Of a stretch of DNA of 64,000 nt, positions 1 to 63,986 are shown piece after piece. The position numbers and the translations under genes were made by a program. This DNA comes from Rusavskia elegans (taxonomy: Eukaryota > Ascomycota > Lecanoromycetes > Teloschistales > Teloschistaceae). Location of the stretch: the NCBI GenBank assembly GCA_011316305.1, contig SAUG01000172.1, positions 30,528 through 94,527 of the forward strand, read 5' to 3'. Below the pieces are notes generated by a model. That model did no database searches, was not told the origin of the DNA, and worked only from the letters and a program-made list of their open reading frames with translations. Numbering within the stretch: position 1 is the stretch's first letter; each line of letters starts with the position of its first letter.

Positions 1-222
1 GCTTACGAAGGCAAGAACGAGACGGAGGAGGGAGATATCCCAATGCCGGACGCCGAGGGAATGGGTGAAGCGGCTAAGGCGGCCACGGAGAAGGTCAAGG
101 AGAAGGTCACGGACAAGGTCACGGACAAGGTCAAGGAGAAGGCTGGTGAGGCGACCGAGGCCGCGAAGCAGGCCATGGCGGATAGTGATGATGCGGGTGC
201 TGATGAGCATGATGAACTGTAA
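1..222 (+). CDS. C-terminal end of an ER-lumenal protein with HDEL retention signal (partial)
   Basis: The frame open from base 1 encodes 73 residues and stops with TAA at 220-222. The last four residues are HDEL, the fungal ER-retrieval signal, so the mature protein should sit in the ER lumen. Before it lies a charged, Lys/Glu/Ala-rich stretch with repeated KVKEKVTDKVTDK-like segments, resembling LEA-type amphipathic helices, and an acidic MPDAEG patch. The N-terminus and all catalytic parts lie outside the window. An acidic, low-complexity tail ending in HDEL would fit the Lhs1/HYOU1-type ER Hsp70, but other ER chaperones are possible. The reading of HDEL is certain; the identity is a guess. 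Confidence 0.75.
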   Translation, partial: AYEGKNETEEGDIPMPDAEGMGEAAKAATEKVKEKVTDKVTDKVKEKAGEATEAAKQAMADSDDAGADEHDEL

Positions 223-45448: not shown

Positions 45449-46638
45449 AATGGTTTTGCCATGACCTAAAGGTTCGATGATGTGGATTGAATTCGGACAA
45501 TAGATGTTCAGCTGGAAGGGATCTGGCACCACTGGGAAAGTCTACAGTGGCTGGGCGCCGTCGGTTTTGAATTCCAAGGCAAGGTTGTCCAACGGTCGGC
45601 TAGTCCCGAAGGAGATGCGACACCTCAGCCCGGTTCATTCCCATATTCTTCACAAATACGCTTGCAGTTACAGTCTACTGATACACTGGATGAGCCCAGC
45701 AGGGTGAACACTTCGACCATACGATCACATTATACCTCGTTCGCCCGAATCTCGTCGCAAATACAGGAGGAGCCAGCCCGTCACGATTAATTTGGTCTAT
45801 AGATTGTCAAACTCTAGCAACTTTACCGCAACATTATATGCTCCTTCGCTTTGACCGATAATGGACAATCATCTTCAGGTGCTAGAAGAGCGGAGCCGGA
45901 CTCATCGGCACACTTGAAAACGGGACGGTACTTGAGAATTGTTTGGAAGAGCCCTTCGTACCACTGCCAGCATATATCGTGCTGCAGTGCTGCGACCGTG
46001 CTTATAAATATGGTACGGATACGTGAGGCTATCCATGTCACAGCAACCATCTTGGAGGGTACTTTGGACACCCCTCCCAGGAGAGAGCTCGAGCCAAAGA
46101 CGTTCTCGTACTTGGAAGGTACCTGATTCGAAGCCAGGTGTTATTTGTATCACATATTGATGAAGCCGACCTGAGCTGTAAGTATTCAGCAGAACAGCTC
46201 CTTGGATCTCATGTACAGTGGTTCTCCAGAGTGCAGGGGGCAGTGAAAGTGACCCGACGGTTACAGAAGCATCCTTGAGACTATCTACGTGAGCGGAAAC
46301 GATGTTACCGTGCTCGCCAGAGGGTCAAACGCGGGACGTACAAAAGTCGGTACCTCGATAAGGGATATCATTCCAACGACTGCTCGATTGTGACTATACA
46401 GCTATAACGTTCGTTGAAAACGTTGTGTTCAACCGAGTGATGGCCTGTAGTGACTTGGATCTGCAACAGGTGTTATGGTTGTTGCGCGCCCCTAATTGCA
46501 ATGACGAGCCGCGCAATGGATCCCATTTTTCGTGATCTTTGAAATGGACCAATCAGAGCGCGCTTATTGCGTCTATGAAATGCATCCGATTCATCCCAAT
46601 TCACACATTTGAACCACCAATCTTGCGATCCAGCAGCC
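45449..46638. other. Long divergent intergenic region
   Basis: About 1.2 kb between the starts of the BRE4-like gene and the complex I subunit. It should contain both promoters. Frames of 60-90 codons lack features. A hairpin-like stretch near 46119-46139 resembles a tRNA T-arm but the rest of a tRNA is absent. Confidence 0.4.
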
Positions 46639-47677
46639 ATGGCTTCCAAGATATTACCGAGGGTCGAGCGATGTCTTTCCAAAGGCTCCCGAGCTCCCTT
46701 ACGAACACAATGGCGGTCCCTCTCTACCACACCCCGAGTGGCAAGCGAAGCGCTTCAAGTCGTGAGTCCAACTGCTTATACCTCTGCCTACACAGAAATC
46801 TATCTGACGGCCTTCAGCATCGCGACTCTCCCCAAAACAACCCCTCAATCCCATTCACTTTCAATGCCATAAACCAAAAGCTCATCGCCGAAATCCTGAA
46901 GCGTTACCCCCCACAATACAAGAAAGCTGCCGTCATGCCCCTCCTTGACCTGGGACAACGACAACACGGTTTTACAAGCATCAGCGTCATGAATGAGGTT
47001 GCGCGGGTGCTGGAGATGCCGCCGATGAGAGTGTATGAGGTAGCGACGTTCTATACCATGTACAACCGGGATCCGGTGGGCAGGTTTCACGTACAAGCTT
47101 GCACGACGGTAGGACTACGTCTTATAATCCCGCCCCTGCAAAAGACGTCTAGCTGATGGGGCTCATGTGGATGTGATAGACACCCTGTCAACTCGGCGGC
47201 TGTGGCTCCGACAAGATCATGGAAGCTATTGAATCCCATCTTGGGGTCGGCCCCGGTCACACCACCGAAGACGGAATGTTCACGTTCTCAGAGGTCGAAT
47301 GTTTAGGCGCCTGTGTCAATGCGCCTATGGTCCAGATCAATGACGATTACTACGAAGACCTGACGCCCGAGACCATGGTCACGCTACTGAAGGCATTACA
47401 AGCGTCGGCAGAAGCGACCGGCGCGGCTGGAGGGACGGCGGGACTGACGGGTGAAAGTGAGGCGGGGATGGGTTCGAGTAAAGGGGCGGATAGGGCACAG
47501 GGTGAGCGAGATGTGACGGCGCAAACTCCGAGGGGGTACAGTGGCAAGCATGGGGTGAAGTTACCTAGTCCAGGACCCCAGACTGGGAGGAGGACATGTG
47601 AGAATATGGCGGGCTTGACGGCGCTGACGGAGGAGCCATGGGGCAATGAGAAGTTGAGAACCGATGGGCAATTGTGA
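46639..47677 (+). CDS. nuo-24: NADH:ubiquinone oxidoreductase 24-kDa subunit (NDUFV2)
   Basis: Exons 46639-46761, 46818-47108 and 47180-47677 encode 303 aa. This peripheral-arm subunit of complex I binds the off-path [2Fe-2S] cluster N1a. The N-terminus [19 protein letters not shown] is an Arg/Ser-rich mitochondrial presequence. The thioredoxin-like domain contains [33 protein letters not shown]. The four cluster ligands are C136 and C141 (CTTTPC, split by intron 2) and C179 and C183 (CLGAC). The Gly/Ser-rich C-terminal tail ends near KLRTDGQL and is longer than in bacteria, as in other fungi. It converges with AIP1 140 bp downstream. Confidence 0.96.
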
Positions 47678-47818: not shown

Positions 47819-49727
47819 TCAACTCAACCCCTCGACTCTCCAAACTTTGACTGCCGCGTCGCCTCCCACACTCACTACCCTCCCATCTCCCACCCACGCA
47901 ACCCCGTTCACTCCATCTTTATGGGCGTTGGCCTTCCCAACCCTCATACCAGGCTTCTTCACGCTCCAGACGAACACGTTAGTATCCAGTCCTCCACTAA
48001 CAGCGTGTGTCCCCTCCTTATTCCAACTGATACTCGTCACTCGTGCAGTATGTGACGACCATCGACTTATCGCAATTTCCCAGGTCGAGGTATTGAATAC
48101 CGAGATCTTCCCGTTGGAGCAGCCGGCGGCAAGATGCTCGCCAGTAGGGGAGAAGGACAGGATGGAGATATTGGAGCCGAGCGAGTCAACTTTACGCTTC
48201 GTGTCAAGGGATGTTGGGGAGAGAATGAGAAGAGAACCATCATCGCAGGCAACCGCTAGCAGGCCGTCGTTTGCGGCGATGGCTGTAGGCGATGCATTTT
48301 TAAATTGTGCTTCTTTCTGCTTTTGACCGTCTTTGAAAGTCTGGACACCTTTGTGTGTTGCTACTGCTGTAAGCCCATTGGAGGTCGCTGTAACAGCCTT
48401 CGGTTGGCCGTCTGTACTGGTGGAGGAGCCAATGAAGACGGTAGCTGAGGCGTCAATGGTACGAAGAGAGTCGTCCCAGCCAACGCTGTAGATACGATTT
48501 TCTGGCGCTGCCGTGATAGCAGACACATAATTCGTATGGCCTTCTCCGTCAAGGTAGTCGGTTGTCCCGGTAGAAATGTTCCAATTGCAGATGCGACCAT
48601 CGCTACTGCCCGTAAAGAGCGTTGGCACTGAGTCTCTCGCATCAATCGCTGCAATTGCCGTGATATTCTTCTGGTGACCGTGGACAACCTTGTGAGGCAA
48701 CGAATTGCCTTCTGAAAGATACGTCAAATCGCCATTGAGGTTTAGACTGATGATCAATCCATCTGAGCGACCGTGTGGCCAAACAACGCCTACCTGATGA
48801 TCTGGGATGCTCACTCTGCCTTCTTCACCCATACGCCATGTCTGAATGGCTTTACCAGCCTCCGCATCCCAGATCTTGACTGTTTGATCCGCAGACGAGG
48901 TAACAAACTTCTTTGAATCTTTCGACCACGACACACCGAAGATGCTGCCCTTGTGCTCGCCAGCCCCTATCTCGGCTTTTGGCTCGCCAGTCTTGCCGTC
49001 GTAGAAGAATATTTGCTTGTCTGCACCTACGCTCACAACTGAAGAGCCATCAGGACTGAACGCAACACCATAGATGAATCGTTGATGCTTTCTTATGCTG
49101 GTATTGAACTTGAATGGCGCTCCGTGATAGAAGACTAGACTTGTGTCGTCACTCCCAGTCATTGCTCTCAGAGGTCTCTGCTGCCGTATCGAGACGCTAT
49201 TGATTTGCGAGCTATGTCCTGATATTTCTCCCACCGAGTTCCCGGAGTCGGCAGTAATGCAGTGACCGAACTTTTCCTTCCCGTCGCCCACTGCTATGAT
49301 CCTTGCAGAGTCTCCATCCCAAGCCAGATCATTGATTTTACCGCCAATGATATGATACTCCCCTTTAGTGGCTCCTTCGCCAACGCAGTCCCAGACACGG
49401 ACGGTTCCTGAAATATCACCACTGGCAACATAGTAGCCGGACGGGGAAAAGCGAGCGACCGTTGTTGCTGTAATATGGCCGGAATACTGGGTGCTCACGG
49501 CTGGTTTGTCAATGGATCGGAGAAAGATTGATTTGTTGTTCTGCAGAGGGAAGCATCCCTGTCAGATTCCATAGGTGGTTGCTGTAGGCGTGCTTCGGTG
49601 AACTCACGGCATAAGCAAGGCGTTCTCCTTTAGGATCTGCGGAGATGGGTGTAGGCTGACCCCGTGTTGTTGAAGGAGAGGGTGCCCATATTGACTCTGC
49701 AGACCATGAGTGACTTTGCTTGACCAT
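47819..49727 (-). CDS. AIP1: Actin-interacting protein 1 (WD40 cofilin cofactor)
   Basis: Exons 49608-49727 and 47819-49540 (67-bp intron GTGAGT...CTGCAG) encode 613 aa. AIP1 works with cofilin to disassemble actin filaments at cortical patches. The long frame begins at a GTG; the true N-terminus MVKQSHSWSAESIWAPSPST comes from exon 1, and splicing makes ERLAYANNKSIFLRSIDKP, typical of AIP1. Two seven-bladed WD40 propellers are expected, with repeats such as VARFSPSGYYVASGDISGTVRVWD, KKFVTSSADQTVKIWD and THAVSGGLDTNVFVWS. The family length is about 610 aa. Confidence 0.95.
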
Positions 49728-51113: not shown

Positions 51114-52207
51114 GGTGAGCATGTGAGCAGATTGAGATCATCGAGCCGGATATGGCATGAGGGGAGTACTTTTTCTCTGTTTTTGGGCTGGTTCGAATGA
51201 ATATTATAAAGTTGCGGAGCCCTTTCGAGCTAAATTCGACTTGTTGATACTATTCGCGATATGCCTGGAACTCTTGAATGTTGATCATCAGCAGCCATGT
51301 CCGTCTCCGATGTACTTGTTCACCGCAGCTGTATCCCACTTCCGCCGCGTCTGATACAATTTGTCAATGTTAGGTAGAGAAATCCCAATTCGACCTATCT
51401 TCATCGTTAGGTCGACTTCCATATCAGCTCGACTTCACTGTCGGTCTTGATGTCATCAGAATCCCAGTGAATGAGATCGTGGATGTTTTCTTTGTCTTCC
51501 CCTGTGCCAACAAGGTGCTTCCTCAAGGCAACGTGCTCGTGAATCGACCAATCGGCGTGCAGTCCGACATCCAATCTGCAGTGAAGTCCATCCACGAGGT
51601 CATTCATCATACCGAGTTACGTACTCCTTCATTATTGATCTGGCCGAAGCGCTTCGCCGAGATTCTACCAGTGCTAAGCGAATCTTCTTCATAATCAGAT
51701 CCATTCTGCTCTTCAACTTTCTGCTCCTTCATACTCACAAATCCTCGTTCGACCACCACTCACCTTTCTTGTCTGCCTTCGAACAATCAGCCAACCTTCA
51801 AGATCATCAGATCATACCTTCCACCATCGAGACAAGTAAGTAGAAAGTGTGTGAAAGCTGCCTGAAGTTCCGTGTGGCATTTCATGCCCAGCTGCTGTTG
51901 TTACTCACTGTACTCGAATGCTTTCGCACCTGTGCTGTCTTGTATGTGGTTCAATACTGGCTCGATTGAGATGTTTGCTGGTCCTGTATCATTGTGCTTA
52001 CATCGTCGTCATTATTCCGAATCTTTCAGATTCCATGGACTTGTTCGGCTTCCTCTATACCCGCCATTTTGTTTCGTATGGAGCTTTTTGTCAATGCCAT
52101 GGTGTATCCTTCAATGTCTTGAACTTGAAAGCTTTCCATCAGCTTTTGAGTGAGGTCGGTGAGCTGACCACGCCACAGATTCACTCAACAACACGAACTT
52201 CTTGAAC
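51114..52207. promoter_or_regulatory. Upstream region of the repeat-peptide gene, with probable 5' leader intron
   Basis: A CT-rich stretch with TTC/TCA repeats near 51690-51830 looks like a fungal transcription start region and leader. A consensus donor GTAAGT lies at 51836, a branch point GCTGAC at about 52163, and an acceptor CCACAG ending at 52178. Together they suggest a 343-bp intron ending 29 bp before the ATG at 52208. Short frames at 51157 and 51467 are not convincing genes. Confidence 0.5.
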
Positions 52208-52950
52208 ATGAAGTCCTTCGTGGTTTCCGCAATCGCTGGAGCTGCCATCATCGGCATGCATGGTGTGACTGCCATCCTCGGCGCTGAAGCCGCCGCTATC
52301 CCAACCATGGGTGAGTCAAGGTCACAATACCATTGCAATTTTGGACAATGAGCTGATCCAATCATTGTAGATGCGGGCTCCCTGGTCGAGCGTCAAGATA
52401 TCATCGTCGACGGTGGCTGTTGGGAAACCTCCACTGGAGAAGTCCGCTGCTCCGCCGGTAAGGAGAAGCGTCAGGATGTCATCGTCGATACTGGTTGCTG
52501 GGAAACATCCACCGGAGAGGTCCGCTGCTCCGCCGGCAAGGAGAAGCGTCAAGATATCATCGTCGACGGTGGCTGTTGGGAAACCTCCACTGGAGAGGTC
52601 CGCTGCTCCGCCGGTAAGGAGAAGCGTCAAGATGTCATCGTCGATACTGGTTGTTGGGAAACCTCCACTGGAGAGGTCCGCTGCTCCGCCGGTAAGGACA
52701 AGCGTCAAGATATCATCGTCGACGGTGGTTGTTGGGAAACCTCCACTGGAGAGGTCAGCTGCTCTGCTGGTAAGGACAAGCGCGATGGTTCCACTGCAAC
52801 TGGTGAGTGATTTGTTTTTGGCATTCGTTATCTATATCTCGTGGTTGTTTGCTGTTTGGATTGTTCATAATTCTGTTTGTCTGGCCATGTCCTTGGGTCG
52901 TCTCTCCAGTATGTGGTGGAGTCTTCAACGGCACAGATGGAGAATGTTGA
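52208..52950 (+). CDS. Secreted Kex2-processed repeat peptide precursor (five 26-residue Cys-loop units)
   Basis: Exons 52208-52310, 52371-52802 and 52910-52950 encode 191 aa. Residues 1-22 (MKSFVVSAIAGAAIIGMHG...) form a signal peptide, followed by a short leader ending SLVER. Five direct repeats of 26 residues occupy 43-172. Each starts QD[I/V]IVD[G/T]G, has a core CWETSTGEV[R/S]C, and ends SAGK[E/D]KR. KR is the classic Kex2 site in the late Golgi, so cleavage would release five peptides with one possible disulphide each and an N-terminal Gln that may cyclise. A tail peptide DGSTATVCGGVFNGTDGEC also has two cysteines. The layout matches fungal Kex2-processed repeat proteins (KEPs), which include alpha-pheromone and RiPP precursors, but the peptide resembles neither that I know. 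Exon 3 is uncertain: see the alternative join to the CBM18 frame. Confidence 0.85.
52394..52783 (+). repeat. Five tandem 78-bp coding repeats in an A-B-A-B-A order
   Basis: Units lie at 52394-52471, 52472-52549, 52550-52627, 52628-52705 and 52706-52783. They differ at few bases, even at silent sites. Units 1, 3 and 5 encode QDIIVDGG and units 2 and 4 encode QDVIVDTG, so the pattern is also a 156-bp higher-order repeat. Unit 5 has one Arg-to-Ser change before the second Cys. Confidence 0.97.
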
Positions 52951-52998
52951 TGGGCTTGTGTGAGTTTACCCCCGCCCACACGTCTTGTCGGTAACGGA

Positions 52999-53379
52999 AT
53001 GCTTGTGGCATTCAAGACAGTTCTCCTTTCTATCGTGTCATTGTCAGTGATGCTGATGTGTGCTTTAGCTACCTCTGTCGCCCCGGCTCAGTCCTCAAGT
53101 GCACCAAATGCAACTACGACCACTCAGAACCCTGTTGACTCAATACCTTGCTGGCCTGGATGTATCTGTGAGGCGGATGGCTCGAGGACCTGTGAGGGCC
53201 CTCAGCCATGGGACCAAACTAGCCCACCTATTCGCGACGACGGTCGTTGCGGCTTGCCAGAGTTCAACTATGCCATATGCTATACATATAGTCCATGGGG
53301 ACGCTGTTGCTCCTCACATGGCTGGTGCGGGAATAGCACAGATCACTGCGGAGCAGGATGTCTGAATGGATGCCGATAG
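52999..53379 (+). CDS. Small secreted hevein-type (CBM18) chitin-binding protein
   Basis: A single-exon model of 126 aa from ATG 52999. Residues 1-24 (MLVAFKTVLLSIVSLSVMLM...) make a strong signal peptide. A Ser/Thr/Pro-rich linker follows. Then comes a Cys-rich stretch with GCICEADGSRTC. The last 46 residues (81-126) are a hevein/CBM18 fold with eight cysteines, including GRCCSSHGWCGNSTDHC. Such proteins bind chitin and may protect the fungal wall or hide chitin fragments from hosts. The ATG lies only 49 bp after the stop of the repeat precursor. An acceptor TTTAG at 53068 is in phase with donor 52803, so part of this frame may instead be the last exon of that gene. The open frame extends 13 codons upstream to a GTG, without another ATG. 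Confidence 0.78.
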   Translation: MLVAFKTVLLSIVSLSVMLMCALATSVAPAQSSSAPNATTTTQNPVDSIPCWPGCICEADGSRTCEGPQPWDQTSPPIRDDGRCGLPEFNYAICYTYSPWGRCCSSHGWCGNSTDHCGAGCLNGCR

Positions 53380-54362
53380 ATTCGCTAATCAGGTGTGTCA
53401 TCCAACAGTCGAAGCCTCTGTCGAGCAGTAAACTGCAAATCTCTCTAGCACCTGCTCGCTAGGCAGTCCACGTTCGGTGAGCCCATGTTGACACTTCCAC
53501 ATCCTAGCGTTGCTAACATGCCTGGCAGACATTTGCTCGTGCTTCTTGACTTGCGACGGGACATCCAGGCAGCGGTTGAATGGTACATGGCAGATTTTGC
53601 AGAGATGGACTCTTTCATTTTTCTTTCATTTCAAAAAGGCGGTGGGTTTCAAGGGACTCTCTTGAGTGACGGAAGATACGTCGGACGAAGGGTGTACTAA
53701 TAGCATGAATAGATGGCTTGAAAGGGCATGCAGATGTTTTTAGATAGCTACATTTGATAGCCAATCTACGACACTGCTCCTTGCGATCACGATCATGCTG
53801 TGGACATCGTGATGCACTGAATCCGTGGAGAACGTTGCTGGTTGATGCCGGCGCGGTACATTGTATTATGGTGGATAGTGTCGTACATTGTTTGCAGCTC
53901 CTGGTGCTTCGAATTGTTATTCCGGAGCTTGTGCGTTGATCATTTGGAGATTCAACCGACAAGGGAAGCCCGTTCCTCGTGTCGAGATCGCAAAGCAATG
54001 AGGGGCTACAACAGCTGGTACCTCGACAAGTAATATCCTTCTTTCGATCACCAGGGAGTGACTATAGAGTTGTTACTTCGACCAAAAGGGGTATGTTCAA
54101 GGAAGTGGGGGCCGTCGTACGGCCTATATTCCTCGGCTAATACGAGATCATAATCTATTACCCATGTAGGAGATGATCGGGAGGCCGAGAAACGGAAGCT
54201 CGTAACCGGAAGCCATGGTGCCTTTTACACGTAGTCTGTTCACTCTCAAGAAAATATGTCTACTTGAATTACGGAAGTCTATTGCATGGATCATGAAGGC
54301 ATCAACATCGTTTTATTGACATTTGTCTTATCTGCTCAAGGCTTGCTTCCACGTCTAACCAC
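53380..54362. other. Convergent intergenic region
   Basis: About 980 bp between the CBM18 gene and RPL10. A 71-codon ATG frame at 53485-53700 has no recognisable feature. I see no repeat, RNA gene or mobile element. Confidence 0.45.
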
Positions 54363-55329
54363 CTACGCCTCCGTCTCAAATGCTTCAGGGAACAAGCCCA
54401 CATTCCGCTCAATCGGCCCCTTGTTCCTCAAGAATTGCACATATGCTCCATCGATCTTGACCTTGCCCTCGGCGCGCTTCTCAAGGTACTCATCACGGCG
54501 AAGGGGAGTGAAGCCCCAGTTTTTGGAGACAATGATCTTTTGGCGACCGGGGAACTTGTACTGCGAACGGCGGAGGGCTTCGATGGCTGTTGCGCGGTCT
54601 GAAGCCGAAACTGTCAGCTCTCGACCATCTGCGGAGATAGGGAATGTAGACGCACGATTGTCACGGGTCCGAACGCTCAGAAGGATCTGGCCAATGTTGA
54701 CACGAGCGACGGTTCCGTTGGGCTTGCCCCATGCACCTCGCATACCGGTTTGCAGTCTATCGGCGCCGGCACAAGACAACATCTTGTTGATGCGAACGAC
54801 ATGGTAAGGATGAGCGCGGACGCGCAGATGGAATCCTTCTTTGCCGGCAACCTTGACTAGGTATCTGTTCCAAGATGAACGTGTCAGCTGGTTGAGCTCC
54901 GTATGTGCGGACAGATATGGATGTTTGGAGGTTGAAGTGGTAAAGCTGGGGCTCGTTGGGGGGAGAGGCTTCTCGCTGGAACAACGTACTTGTTCGCACA
55001 GATACGGGCTGCTTCGAGAGCTTCGGAGGACAGTTGTTCGTATTCGTTGGAGACCATGTGCACGCAGAGGGGAAATTCGTCTACGTTCGCACGCTTGCGG
55101 CCGAGATCGAAGATGCGAATCTTCGGGTCAGGTACACCACGATTGAAGCGAGACTTGGGATATGGCTATGGAAGAGCAAAATGTCAGCTTTGGATCGTAC
55201 TTGAAAGATGTCATGAAGTATACGAAGACAACATGAATTTTGGAGCACTCCTTCTAGAGCAGTGGTGTTGTAGGGAAGGCTTACCTTGTTCTTGCAGTAG
55301 CGATAACATCTTGCTGGTCGGCGGGCCAT
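54363..55329 (-). CDS. RPL10: 60S ribosomal protein L10 (uL16)
   Basis: Exons 55285-55329, 54990-55165, 54656-54864 and 54363-54598 encode 221 aa, the standard length. uL16 sits near the peptidyl-transferase centre and is one of the last proteins added to the 60S subunit. The start [15 protein letters not shown] comes from a 15-codon first exon. [40 protein letters not shown] and [20 protein letters not shown] are all present. The third intron (54599-54655, 57 nt, GTGCGT...TTCAG) is a multiple of three and has no stop. Without removing it the protein would carry 19 extra residues inside [18 protein letters not shown], so splicing is required. Confidence 0.97.
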
Positions 55330-61962: not shown

Positions 61963-63986
61963 ATGATATCACTTGTGCTTTGGGCCCTGCTGGCCCTTCC
62001 TCTGAGCTACTTCCTCAACAGCTTGTGGTGCCTTCGTCGAAACATCCTGGCCGCCAAAGCAACCGGCTTGCCCTACGTCGTGCTTCCGTGGAGCAACCTC
62101 AACCTCCCCTGGCTGATCCTGCGCCCAATTCTACTGCCATATCTGAACAAGCTCCCGATCCGCGACGCCCTTTGGTTCAGGCTTCTCTCCGTCGACTGGC
62201 CATGGCATCAACAGTACGCCGTCTTCCAACAGCTGCGCTGTGACAACTTTCTATACGTCTCGCCGTCATACAATTATTTCAATACAGCCGACGCTGCTGT
62301 CATCGATCAGATCACCAAGCGCCGCCATGACTTCCCAAAGCCCACCGAGGTCTACCGTTCACTCGACATCTACGGCCAGAATGTCGTCAGTACCGAGGGG
62401 AACCTCTGGAAGCACCATCGAAAGACAGTGAGCCCGCCCTTCAACGAGAAGAACAACCGCATGGTCTGGTACGAGAGTCTTCGCCAGGCCCGGTCGATGG
62501 TCAATGGCTGGATGAGCGATCAGACCGAGTCTTCCGCCACTATTTACAGCGTCGCCGATGACTGCATGAAGTTGAGCCTGTACGTCATCAGTTGCGCTGG
62601 CTTTGGAGTCAATCTGGACTGGCCAGGTCAGGGAGAACAGCCGCTCGCCAATGGGCATGCTTCTTCCAGCACGGAGAAACCCCCCAAAGCGTCTGAAGTC
62701 AGTGGTGACCACACGTTGAGTTACGTCGATGCACTTCAGAGTCTTCTTCACAACATGCTTTGGATCTTTATCTTTCCCCTGTTCCTCATGAGTAAGTCAT
62801 CCACAATCCTGTCCGACATCCCCGCATGTCTTTCTAACGCTCGTTATCAGAATGGCTGCCATTCAGTGGAATCAAGCGGTCCTATACTTCCTATATCGAA
62901 TGGGGAAAACATCTTCGCGAGCTTTTCGACAACAAGAAGGACGACATCGCGGCCGGCAAAGCCCAGGAAGGCATGGACCTGATGGGATTCCTCTGCAAAG
63001 GCGCCGGTATGACTTCGGATCCCACCAGGGTGGATTCCGAGAAGTCTCGAGCAAAGCCAGTACTCAGCGACACGGAAATCATGGGCAACGCTTTTGTCTT
63101 CCTCCTGGCCGGGCACGAAACCGCCGCCAACAGCATTCATTTCTCTTGCCTCTACCTTGCCATGCACCCCTCTTCCCAACGCCGACTCCAAAAGTCTCTG
63201 AACCGCATCTTTGCTTCACGTCCCATCTCCGAATGGGAGTACGAGCGGGACTTCAATGCATTATTTTCAACAATGGCCGGCGCCGTCTTAGCTGAAGAAC
63301 TCCGTCTCATCCCCCCCGTGCCCGCAATCCCCAAATGTGTCCCTCGCAACGCCTCCCCACAAACTCTCGTCATCGACAACCAAAAACACACCCTCTCACC
63401 CGCCACCTACATCAACCTCGTCTCCCTCGCCGCCCACCGCAACCCAAAAAGCTGGCCCGCCGGTCCCCCTTCAGATCCCAAAAACCCCGTCCACCCAATC
63501 AGCAACACAGACAACGACCTCGAAGAATTCAAACCCGAGCGCTGGCTCCGCGAATCCGCTCACACTTGCGATTCCCCATCGTCCGAAAAAGACATGTACA
63601 CCGAAGACGCCCCCAACACCGCAACCGGCACCAACAGCTCCCACGCTCTGCACCGCCCGCCCCGCGGCGCATACATCCCCTTTAGCGAAGGCTACCGCGC
63701 CTGCCTGGGCCGACGCTTCGCGCAGGTGGAAGTCCTGGCCGCGTTGGCGGTGATTTTCAAAGACTATAGTATCGAGCTAGGCGTGGAGAAATACGCGAGC
63801 GATGAGGAGGTGGAGAAGATGGGGAGGGAGGAGAGAAGGGAGGTTTATGGGATGGCGGTGCGGGATATGAGGGTTTTGATGAGGGAGAAGATGGGCATGC
63901 TTTTCACGATGCAGATACGGGGGGCGAATGTGGGATTTCGGGTTGTGAAGAGGGGGGAGGAACGGTTCGCTGATGCTTATCTGTGA
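61963..63986 (+). CDS. Cytochrome P450 monooxygenase
   Basis: Exons 61963-62791 and 62851-63986 (59-bp intron GTAAGT...ATCAG) encode 654 aa. The N-terminus MISLVLWALLALPLSYFLN is an ER membrane anchor. The C-helix WxxxR-like LWKHHRK is present. The I-helix oxygen-binding motif AGHET is at about 363-367. The K-helix E-x-x-R is in EELRLIPPVPA. The heme loop FSEGYRACLGRRFA has its ligand Cys at about 561. The protein is longer than the usual ~500-550 aa: extra residues lie near LANGHASSSTEKPPKASEV and between the PERW motif and the heme loop. These look like low-complexity insertions. The substrate cannot be inferred; an isolated P450 with upstream ATGs suggests a detoxifying or secondary-metabolism role. 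It ends 14 bp before the window edge. Confidence 0.95.

Follow-up and report, generated by a model that had tools for sequence, protein, structure and literature searches.

Kex2-processed repeat precursors (KEPs) are, as a class, well described (PMC6339444, PMC7329392, PMC9769878). They are characterized by a signal-like leader and near-identical repeats with KR between them, and a minimum of three repeats was set for the class by PMC6339444. Umemura classified 7,878 KEPs, of which 2,560 are without homologs; the accompanying table includes Umbilicaria and, for one KEP type (S-6, of Neocallimastix and Piromyces), an HMM match to Chitin_bind_1 (PMC7329392). Because of this S-6 match, the pairing of a KEP with chitin binding has one listed precedent, in unrelated fungi. 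KEPs of Coprinopsis cinerea have been expressed in Pichia pastoris (PMC9769878), and kep knockouts in Coprinopsis are described as having no detectable phenotype (Vogt et al.), which calls for caution in functional claims. The main texts of PMC6339444 and PMC7329392 do not mention lichen, Lecanoromycetes or Xanthoria; the supplementary lists may include the gene family described here. The accessible text of a comparative genomics study of lichens does not mention Kex2, CBM18 or chitin-binding (PMC9232553), and a survey from 2025, covering 111 genomes of lichen fungi, is described as having found that the two RiPP clans studied lack conserved repeated regions (PMC12048977). A literature search on Xanthoria and Kex2 gave no paper, and among the papers on lichen, Kex2 and pheromone none describes the gene reported here, judged by title and the start of the abstract. 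To our knowledge, very few peptide signals have been described from lichens.

Three other described systems resemble parts of the locus. Ascomycete alpha-pheromone precursors share the processing plan and the short two-cysteine peptide; precursors of dikaritins and other UstYa-type RiPPs share leader, repeats and KR; and hevein-type CBM18 proteins (PF00187) share an eight-cysteine domain that scores above the curated cut-off.

Here, we describe a KEP locus of Rusavskia elegans (genome of 44.16 Mb in 217 contigs). The window, i.e., the whole 64,000-nt stretch of DNA analysed, is part of contig C80. We consider it likely, with a probability of roughly 0.7, that this locus of a lichen fungus in the Teloschistaceae encodes a secreted repeat precursor processed by Kex2, from which about five acidic peptides are released and whose CBM18 part is bound to wall chitin. 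In contrast to described KEPs, the gene combines Cys-loop units with a CBM18 exon in the same locus, and we found no description of its repeat type. The original prediction called the precursor undescribed; this holds for the gene, which we did not find in the literature searched, but not for the class. What is new is a lineage-specific KEP example with a linked CBM18 exon, while the KEP class is known.

Five near-identical units in a coding frame

The 5' part of the gene comprises the following features.

52208, + strand: start codon (ATG) of the KEP gene, from the translation
52208..52310, + strand: exon 1, predicted signal peptide and start of the pro-region (MKSFVVSAIAGAAIIGMHGVTAILGAEAAAIPTM), with an N-terminus conserved in homologs
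52311..52370, + strand: intron 1, 60 nt, GTGAGT donor, CTGAT branch and TAG acceptor; splicing restores the frame of the homologs
52371..52802, + strand: exon 2, comprising the L-V-E-R end of the leader, the five units and DGSTAT; from sequence and translation
52394..52471, + strand: unit 1, QDIIVDGGCWETSTGEVRCSAGKEKR
52472..52549, + strand: unit 2, QDVIVDTGCWETSTGEVRCSAGKEKR
52550..52627, + strand: unit 3, QDIIVDGGCWETSTGEVRCSAGKEKR
52628..52705, + strand: unit 4, QDVIVDTGCWETSTGEVRCSAGKDKR
52706..52783, + strand: unit 5, QDIIVDGGCWETSTGEVSCSAGKDKR

Several lines of evidence place the gene among KEPs. First, the N-terminus is hydrophobic and is predicted as a signal peptide by hydropathy only (Kyte-Doolittle maximum of 2.56 over a 12-residue window). 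Second, the five in-frame repeats at 52394-52783 are exactly 78 bp each, i.e., 26 residues per unit, and are near-identical, with the consensus Q-D-[I/V]-I-V-D-[G/T]-G-C-W-E-T-S-T-G-E-V-[R/S]-C-S-A-G-K-[E/D]-K-R. Third, all units end in KEKR or KDKR, so that a KR site for Kex2 follows 5/5 units, and each contains one CWETSTGEV[R/S]C loop (C-x5-G-x3-C). The hydrophobic leader, the five repeats and the loops had been noted in the original prediction and are confirmed by sequence and translation. The units fall into two alternating subtypes (1, 3 and 5 versus 2 and 4). Tandem Repeats Finder scores the array at 641, compared with 53, 55, 63 and 84 for the four further arrays of the window. A short 12-bp tandem repeat of 4.7 copies is present at window positions 87-142.

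The KEP reading frame of the units is coding and under purifying selection. Between unit pairs in this frame, mean pS is 0.264 and mean pN 0.048, giving a pN/pS of 0.18, whereas the two remaining forward frames have ratios of 3.64 and 1.68; gene conversion between units depresses the absolute values but is not the source of the contrast between frames. The three reverse frames give 0.93, a pS of zero, and 0.29, the last with mirrored third position. Variable columns in the units number 16, of which 12 are at third, three at first and one at second codon positions. A DNA search and a search with the protein of a relative each gave only this one locus in the genome.

Unit 1 is preceded by L-V-E-R, not KR. 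For Kex2, an extended motif LxxR is described in which Glu is accepted at P2 and Leu preferred at P4 (PMC8528282, accessible text), and L-V-E-R is therefore a plausible first Kex2 cut.

The Cys loop is conserved in relatives from the Teloschistaceae

Two protein searches at E ≤ 1, one with the spliced KEP protein and one with an alignment of eight, scored 7,992 and 7,998 word-sharing candidates, respectively, and gave 10 relatives (P0001-P0007 and P0010-P0012), distant ones possibly being missed. The relatives are from Xanthoria (three), Flavoplaca (three), Calogaya, Xanthocarpia, Polycauliona and Gallowayella, and all six genera are Teloschistaceae lichen fungi in the NCBI taxonomy. With P0002 as query, plasmids, viral contigs and bacterial and archaeal genomes gave no relatives. 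The leader of P0002 (Xanthoria sp. 2) is nearly identical to that of the KEP in the window.

Together, the window and the 10 homologs contain 35 complete loops in 11 sequences, excluding an extra loop of P0010 that is cut by the gene model. C1, W2, G7 and C11 are invariant in 35/35 loops; position 9 is V in 31 and I in four, and position 10 is R in 32. The sequence ahead of the loop differs between genera. A KR of its own before the next loop is present in 31/35 loops. The exceptions comprise a single Xanthocarpia site, which reads KKKG, and three loops from Xanthoria calcicola and X. mediterranea; therefore, one loop per peptide is not universal. In the proteins of the latter two species (P0004 and P0005), two Cys loops share a Kex2 fragment with no KR between them. 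The leader ends in E-R in 9/11 sequences ([L/V]-x-E-R) and in K-R in 2/11, and Gln comes next in 11/11, which agrees with the Kex2 motif of PMC8528282. Complete loops per protein range from one (P0012, partial) to five, with fewer than three in each of P0002, P0007 and the partial P0012.

On these comparisons, the locus is a conserved, lineage-specific KEP with an invariant Cys loop. The idea of a Kex2-processed repeat precursor gains support from the conservation of the loop and of most KR sites. As far as can be told, the homolog gene models are automatic predictions and are mutually discordant at the 3' end, which weighs against the preferred reading of that end.

A CBM18 exon follows the repeat array

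Scanning 52200-53500 for CTRAY followed 5-22 nt on by YAG gave three acceptors (52370, 53068 and 53408), and for GTRAGT three donors (52311, 52803 and 52960). Combined with the relatives, these signals allow the following features downstream of exon 2.

52803..53068, + strand: intron 2 of the preferred model, 266 nt, GTGAGT donor, CTGAT branch and TTTAG acceptor, giving an in-frame KEP-CBM18 join; from splice signals and the junction in P0011
53069..53379, + strand: CBM18 exon with its own stop, comprising an S/T/A-rich linker, a Cys-rich stretch and a hevein-type domain at about 53245-53373; matches PF00187 and aligns with P0008, P0009 and P0011
52999..53379, + strand: alternative reading, CBM18 frame with its own signal-like start MLVAFKTVLLSIVSLSVMLMCALA; hydropathy 2.65; the ATG is absent from P0008 and at another codon in P0009
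53409..53431, + strand: alternative last exon behind acceptor 53408 (CTAAT branch, CAG), ending ...DGSTATVEASVEQ-stop; from splice signals and the endings of relatives
52910..52950, + strand: last exon of the original prediction (VCGGVFNGTDGEC-stop), behind acceptor 52909, weakly supported

The original prediction, in which the CBM18 exon is absent, ended the gene at 52950. This end is probably wrong. Acceptor 52909 has no CTRAY branch 5-22 nt upstream, and P0008, whose protein letters permit only L/S/stop and F/S/Y at the two codons, lacks the terminal Glu-Cys; we have, therefore, rejected it as the main model. Better signals lead to the exon at 53069-53379. When donor 52803 is spliced to acceptor 53068, which lies with its branch at 53053-53068, the frame runs into ATSVAPAQSSS... 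and CBM18, for a total of 281 residues. The exon matches PF00187 with 29.9 bits (Pfam cut-off 27.8). The hevein domain has a pattern of eight cysteines, and all eight are present in the window, P0008 and P0009. At E ≤ 0.1, the CBM18 part has 15 matches in PDB, 13 of which bear the names of lectins, agglutinins or class I chitinases, the best being plant hevein-type lectins; the other two are to peptidoglycan recognition protein 3 and are weak (E 0.03 and 0.05). The preferred model differs from hevein-type CBM18 proteins in the Kex2-cut repeat array ahead of the domain.

The relatives provide evidence for the join. The partial P0011 (Flavoplaca limonia) is annotated with the same junction, ...KRDGLTET joined to ATSVAPTQ..., at a homologous acceptor, and its CBM18 scores 31.6 bits; its gene model lacks the last two CBM18 cysteines, and this cut, together with its being partial, weakens it as a witness for a fusion. 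In the annotations of P0001 and P0010, the KEP runs into this downstream region in another frame, so the CBM18 exon adjoins the KEP in these relatives too, although their 3' models are probably wrong in detail. Compared to 52807-53068, P0008, a close relative, has, as read from its protein, a frame shift near 52893 (a 1-nt indel) and lacks 28 nt (~52992-53019, including the ATG at 52999), while its CBM18 part differs by substitutions and one in-frame insertion only. Such a pattern is typical of an intron. Against a fusion, the 266-nt intron is long relative to the 60 nt of intron 1, and the signal-like start of the CBM18 frame favors a separate CBM18 product. We put the chances of a KEP-CBM18 fusion at about even. 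Either way, fused or separate, the locus is predicted to encode both the peptides and a CBM18 protein.

The strongest competing reading, which we regard as a serious possibility though short of probable, is that the same KEP locus gives two secreted products from overlapping transcripts: a KEP with a short tail (VEASVEQ or GE), and a CBM18 protein starting at 52999, whose frame lies wholly within a 606-nt intron at 52803-53408. Its CBM18 start is signal-like, with an ALA-T cleavage-like site and a hydropathy of 2.65, and only ~1% of frames are as hydrophobic (of 846 ATG frames tested across the window, 8 have at least 2.55, and the KEP and CBM18 starts are themselves that high). P0009 keeps the hydrophobic stretch before CBM18 without gaps (2.29), and even in P0008 an in-frame Met further upstream comes with a stretch of this kind (2.56). 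Moreover, in the annotations of P0004 and P0006, exon 2 runs straight into the -VEQ exon. This exon is present in the window behind the CTAAT branch and CAG acceptor, and splicing of donor 52803 to acceptor 53408 gives a product ending in VEASVEQ, comparable to FEAPVEQ in P0004, VEAIVEQ in P0006 and FEAIVEQ in P0011, where it follows CBM18. However, only 48 or 188 nt separate the KEP stops (52950 in the original prediction, 52810 if unspliced) from the ATG at 52999, leaving little room for a second promoter. The ATG itself falls in the 28 nt missing from P0008, and Met is at other codons in P0009. Finally, acceptor 53068, with its CTGAT branch, is in frame with exon 2, as the fused model has it. 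It is conceivable, though we think it rather unlikely, that alternative splicing of the one locus yields a two-part secreted kit for lichen-partner recognition or signalling, comprising disulphide-ring peptides and a chitin-binding protein, and that the signal-like sequence of CBM18 doubles as the 3' part of the KEP intron.

The CBM18 exon contains CICEADGSRTC (53161-53193), whose C-x5-G-x3-C spacing matches that of the KEP units; the corresponding CVCRDDGSRTC of P0009 and the Gallowayella loop CWETDDGQVRC have 5/11 letters in common. The shared spacing may reflect a common origin or merely a common hairpin.

Predicted product and mode of action

In the preferred reading, the precursor would enter the secretory pathway by its predicted signal peptide, and Kex2 would cut after L-V-E-R and after each KR. 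Kex1 would then trim K-R. Kex1 trims only basic K-R, and the mature unit is therefore expected to have 24 residues and to end in SAGKE or SAGKD rather than in SAGK, as originally proposed. The N-terminal Gln may cyclise to pyroglutamate, and the two cysteines may close an 11-residue hairpin-like ring by a disulphide. In total, some five copies of the acidic peptide of 24 residues would be released, and the CBM18 part would be bound to wall chitin. Their most likely role would be that of an extracellular signal or effector, in self-signalling or toward algal or microbial partners.

The computed 24-residue products have a pI of 4.05-4.37, a charge of −3.2 to −4.3 and a GRAVY of −0.29 to −0.47. 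Judged from these values, the product resembles neither a cationic antimicrobial nor a hydrophobic coat peptide. With K-R trimmed, the monoisotopic mass of units 1 and 3 is 2539.132 Da reduced, 2537.116 Da with the disulphide and 2520.090 Da with disulphide and pyroglutamate; the latter two forms have masses of 2567.127 and 2550.100 Da for unit 2, 2553.111 and 2536.085 Da for unit 4, and 2454.031 and 2437.005 Da for unit 5. The locus represents a conserved lichen precursor with homologs in six genera and a defined predicted product that can be synthesized and searched for by mass.

The alignment-based structure model of the KEP has a mean confidence of 40.6 and shows short hairpins over the loops at low confidence; it was set aside. 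The KEP profile had no relative in PDB at E ≤ 1; one PDB match of P0002 (E 0.38) was taken as chance, as were the Pfam matches of the KEP to Chlam_OMP3 (26.8 bits, cut-off 25) and nine weaker families, which we attribute to the Cys-rich repeat.

Other readings and genomic context

That the gene is instead a divergent alpha-type mating-pheromone precursor acting on the STE2 receptor is improbable. The architecture is the same, the genome has one STE2 match (contig C174), and the cores in Flavoplaca, CWQLPDGQVRC, have an LP-GQ-C look. In addition, three alpha-pheromone patterns matched 4, 8 and 1 places in the genome (12 different, the first two patterns having one in common), none a convincing precursor: judged by eye, none is in frame with a leader and KR repeats, although introns could hide a leader. 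The best-looking candidate, WCDDLGQNCW on contig C217, has KR about ten residues before it but lies on the opposite strand of a TFIIB-type gene. The STE2 ligand in Teloschistaceae may, then, be divergent. However, the R. elegans core is CWETSTGEVRC, and WCxxxGQxC is found in 0/35 loops, which agrees with the dissimilarity to alpha pheromones stated in the original prediction; nor do STE13-type dipeptides follow KR, the units beginning with QD.

Still less likely is that the gene encodes a surface-coat peptide of the Ustilago Rep1 kind, or a repeat protein that stays in one piece. Repeats with KR fit such a protein, and one of five single-sequence structure models of exon 2 is beta-rich (pLDDT 74.9), but it was made with no alignment and the other four reach 43.8-46.3, so that we do not count it as evidence. 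Rep1-type surface peptides have hydrophobic repeats; by contrast, the R. elegans units are hydrophilic and acidic, and the KR sites are mostly kept in relatives. A link to the Xanthoria algal-binding protein was dropped, this protein being described with arginase activity in the accessible text of PMC8126723.

Least likely of all is a dikaritin-type RiPP precursor with peptides cyclised by UstYa oxidases: leader, repeats and KR are as in dikaritin precursors and UstYa matches exist in the genome, but all 11 of these (DUF3328) are on five other contigs (C168, C22, C148, C209 and C73) and none on the KEP contig, UstYa, tyrosinase and methyltransferase are absent among the 18 window frames scanned, and the paired cysteines suggest a disulphide instead. 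Judged by these matches, the genome may hold several dikaritin-type clusters elsewhere.

The 18 frames scanned against Pfam are from 103 long frames listed for the window, and their matches are mostly of housekeeping type.

Further left of the KEP: PRP1, CSTF2-like and sorting-nexin genes (Pfam)
46536-47156: thioredoxin-like ferredoxin (Pfam)
47819-49561: WD40 protein (Pfam)
54363-55127: ribosomal L16/L10e frame (Pfam)
62838-63986: cytochrome P450 frame, ~9 kb right of the KEP (Pfam)

The P450 frame shows no sign of belonging with the KEP. Elsewhere, the genome contains one kexin-type match (C7), with a subtilase domain (159.7 bits) and a P-domain, and PF00187 matches number ten, the KEP locus included.
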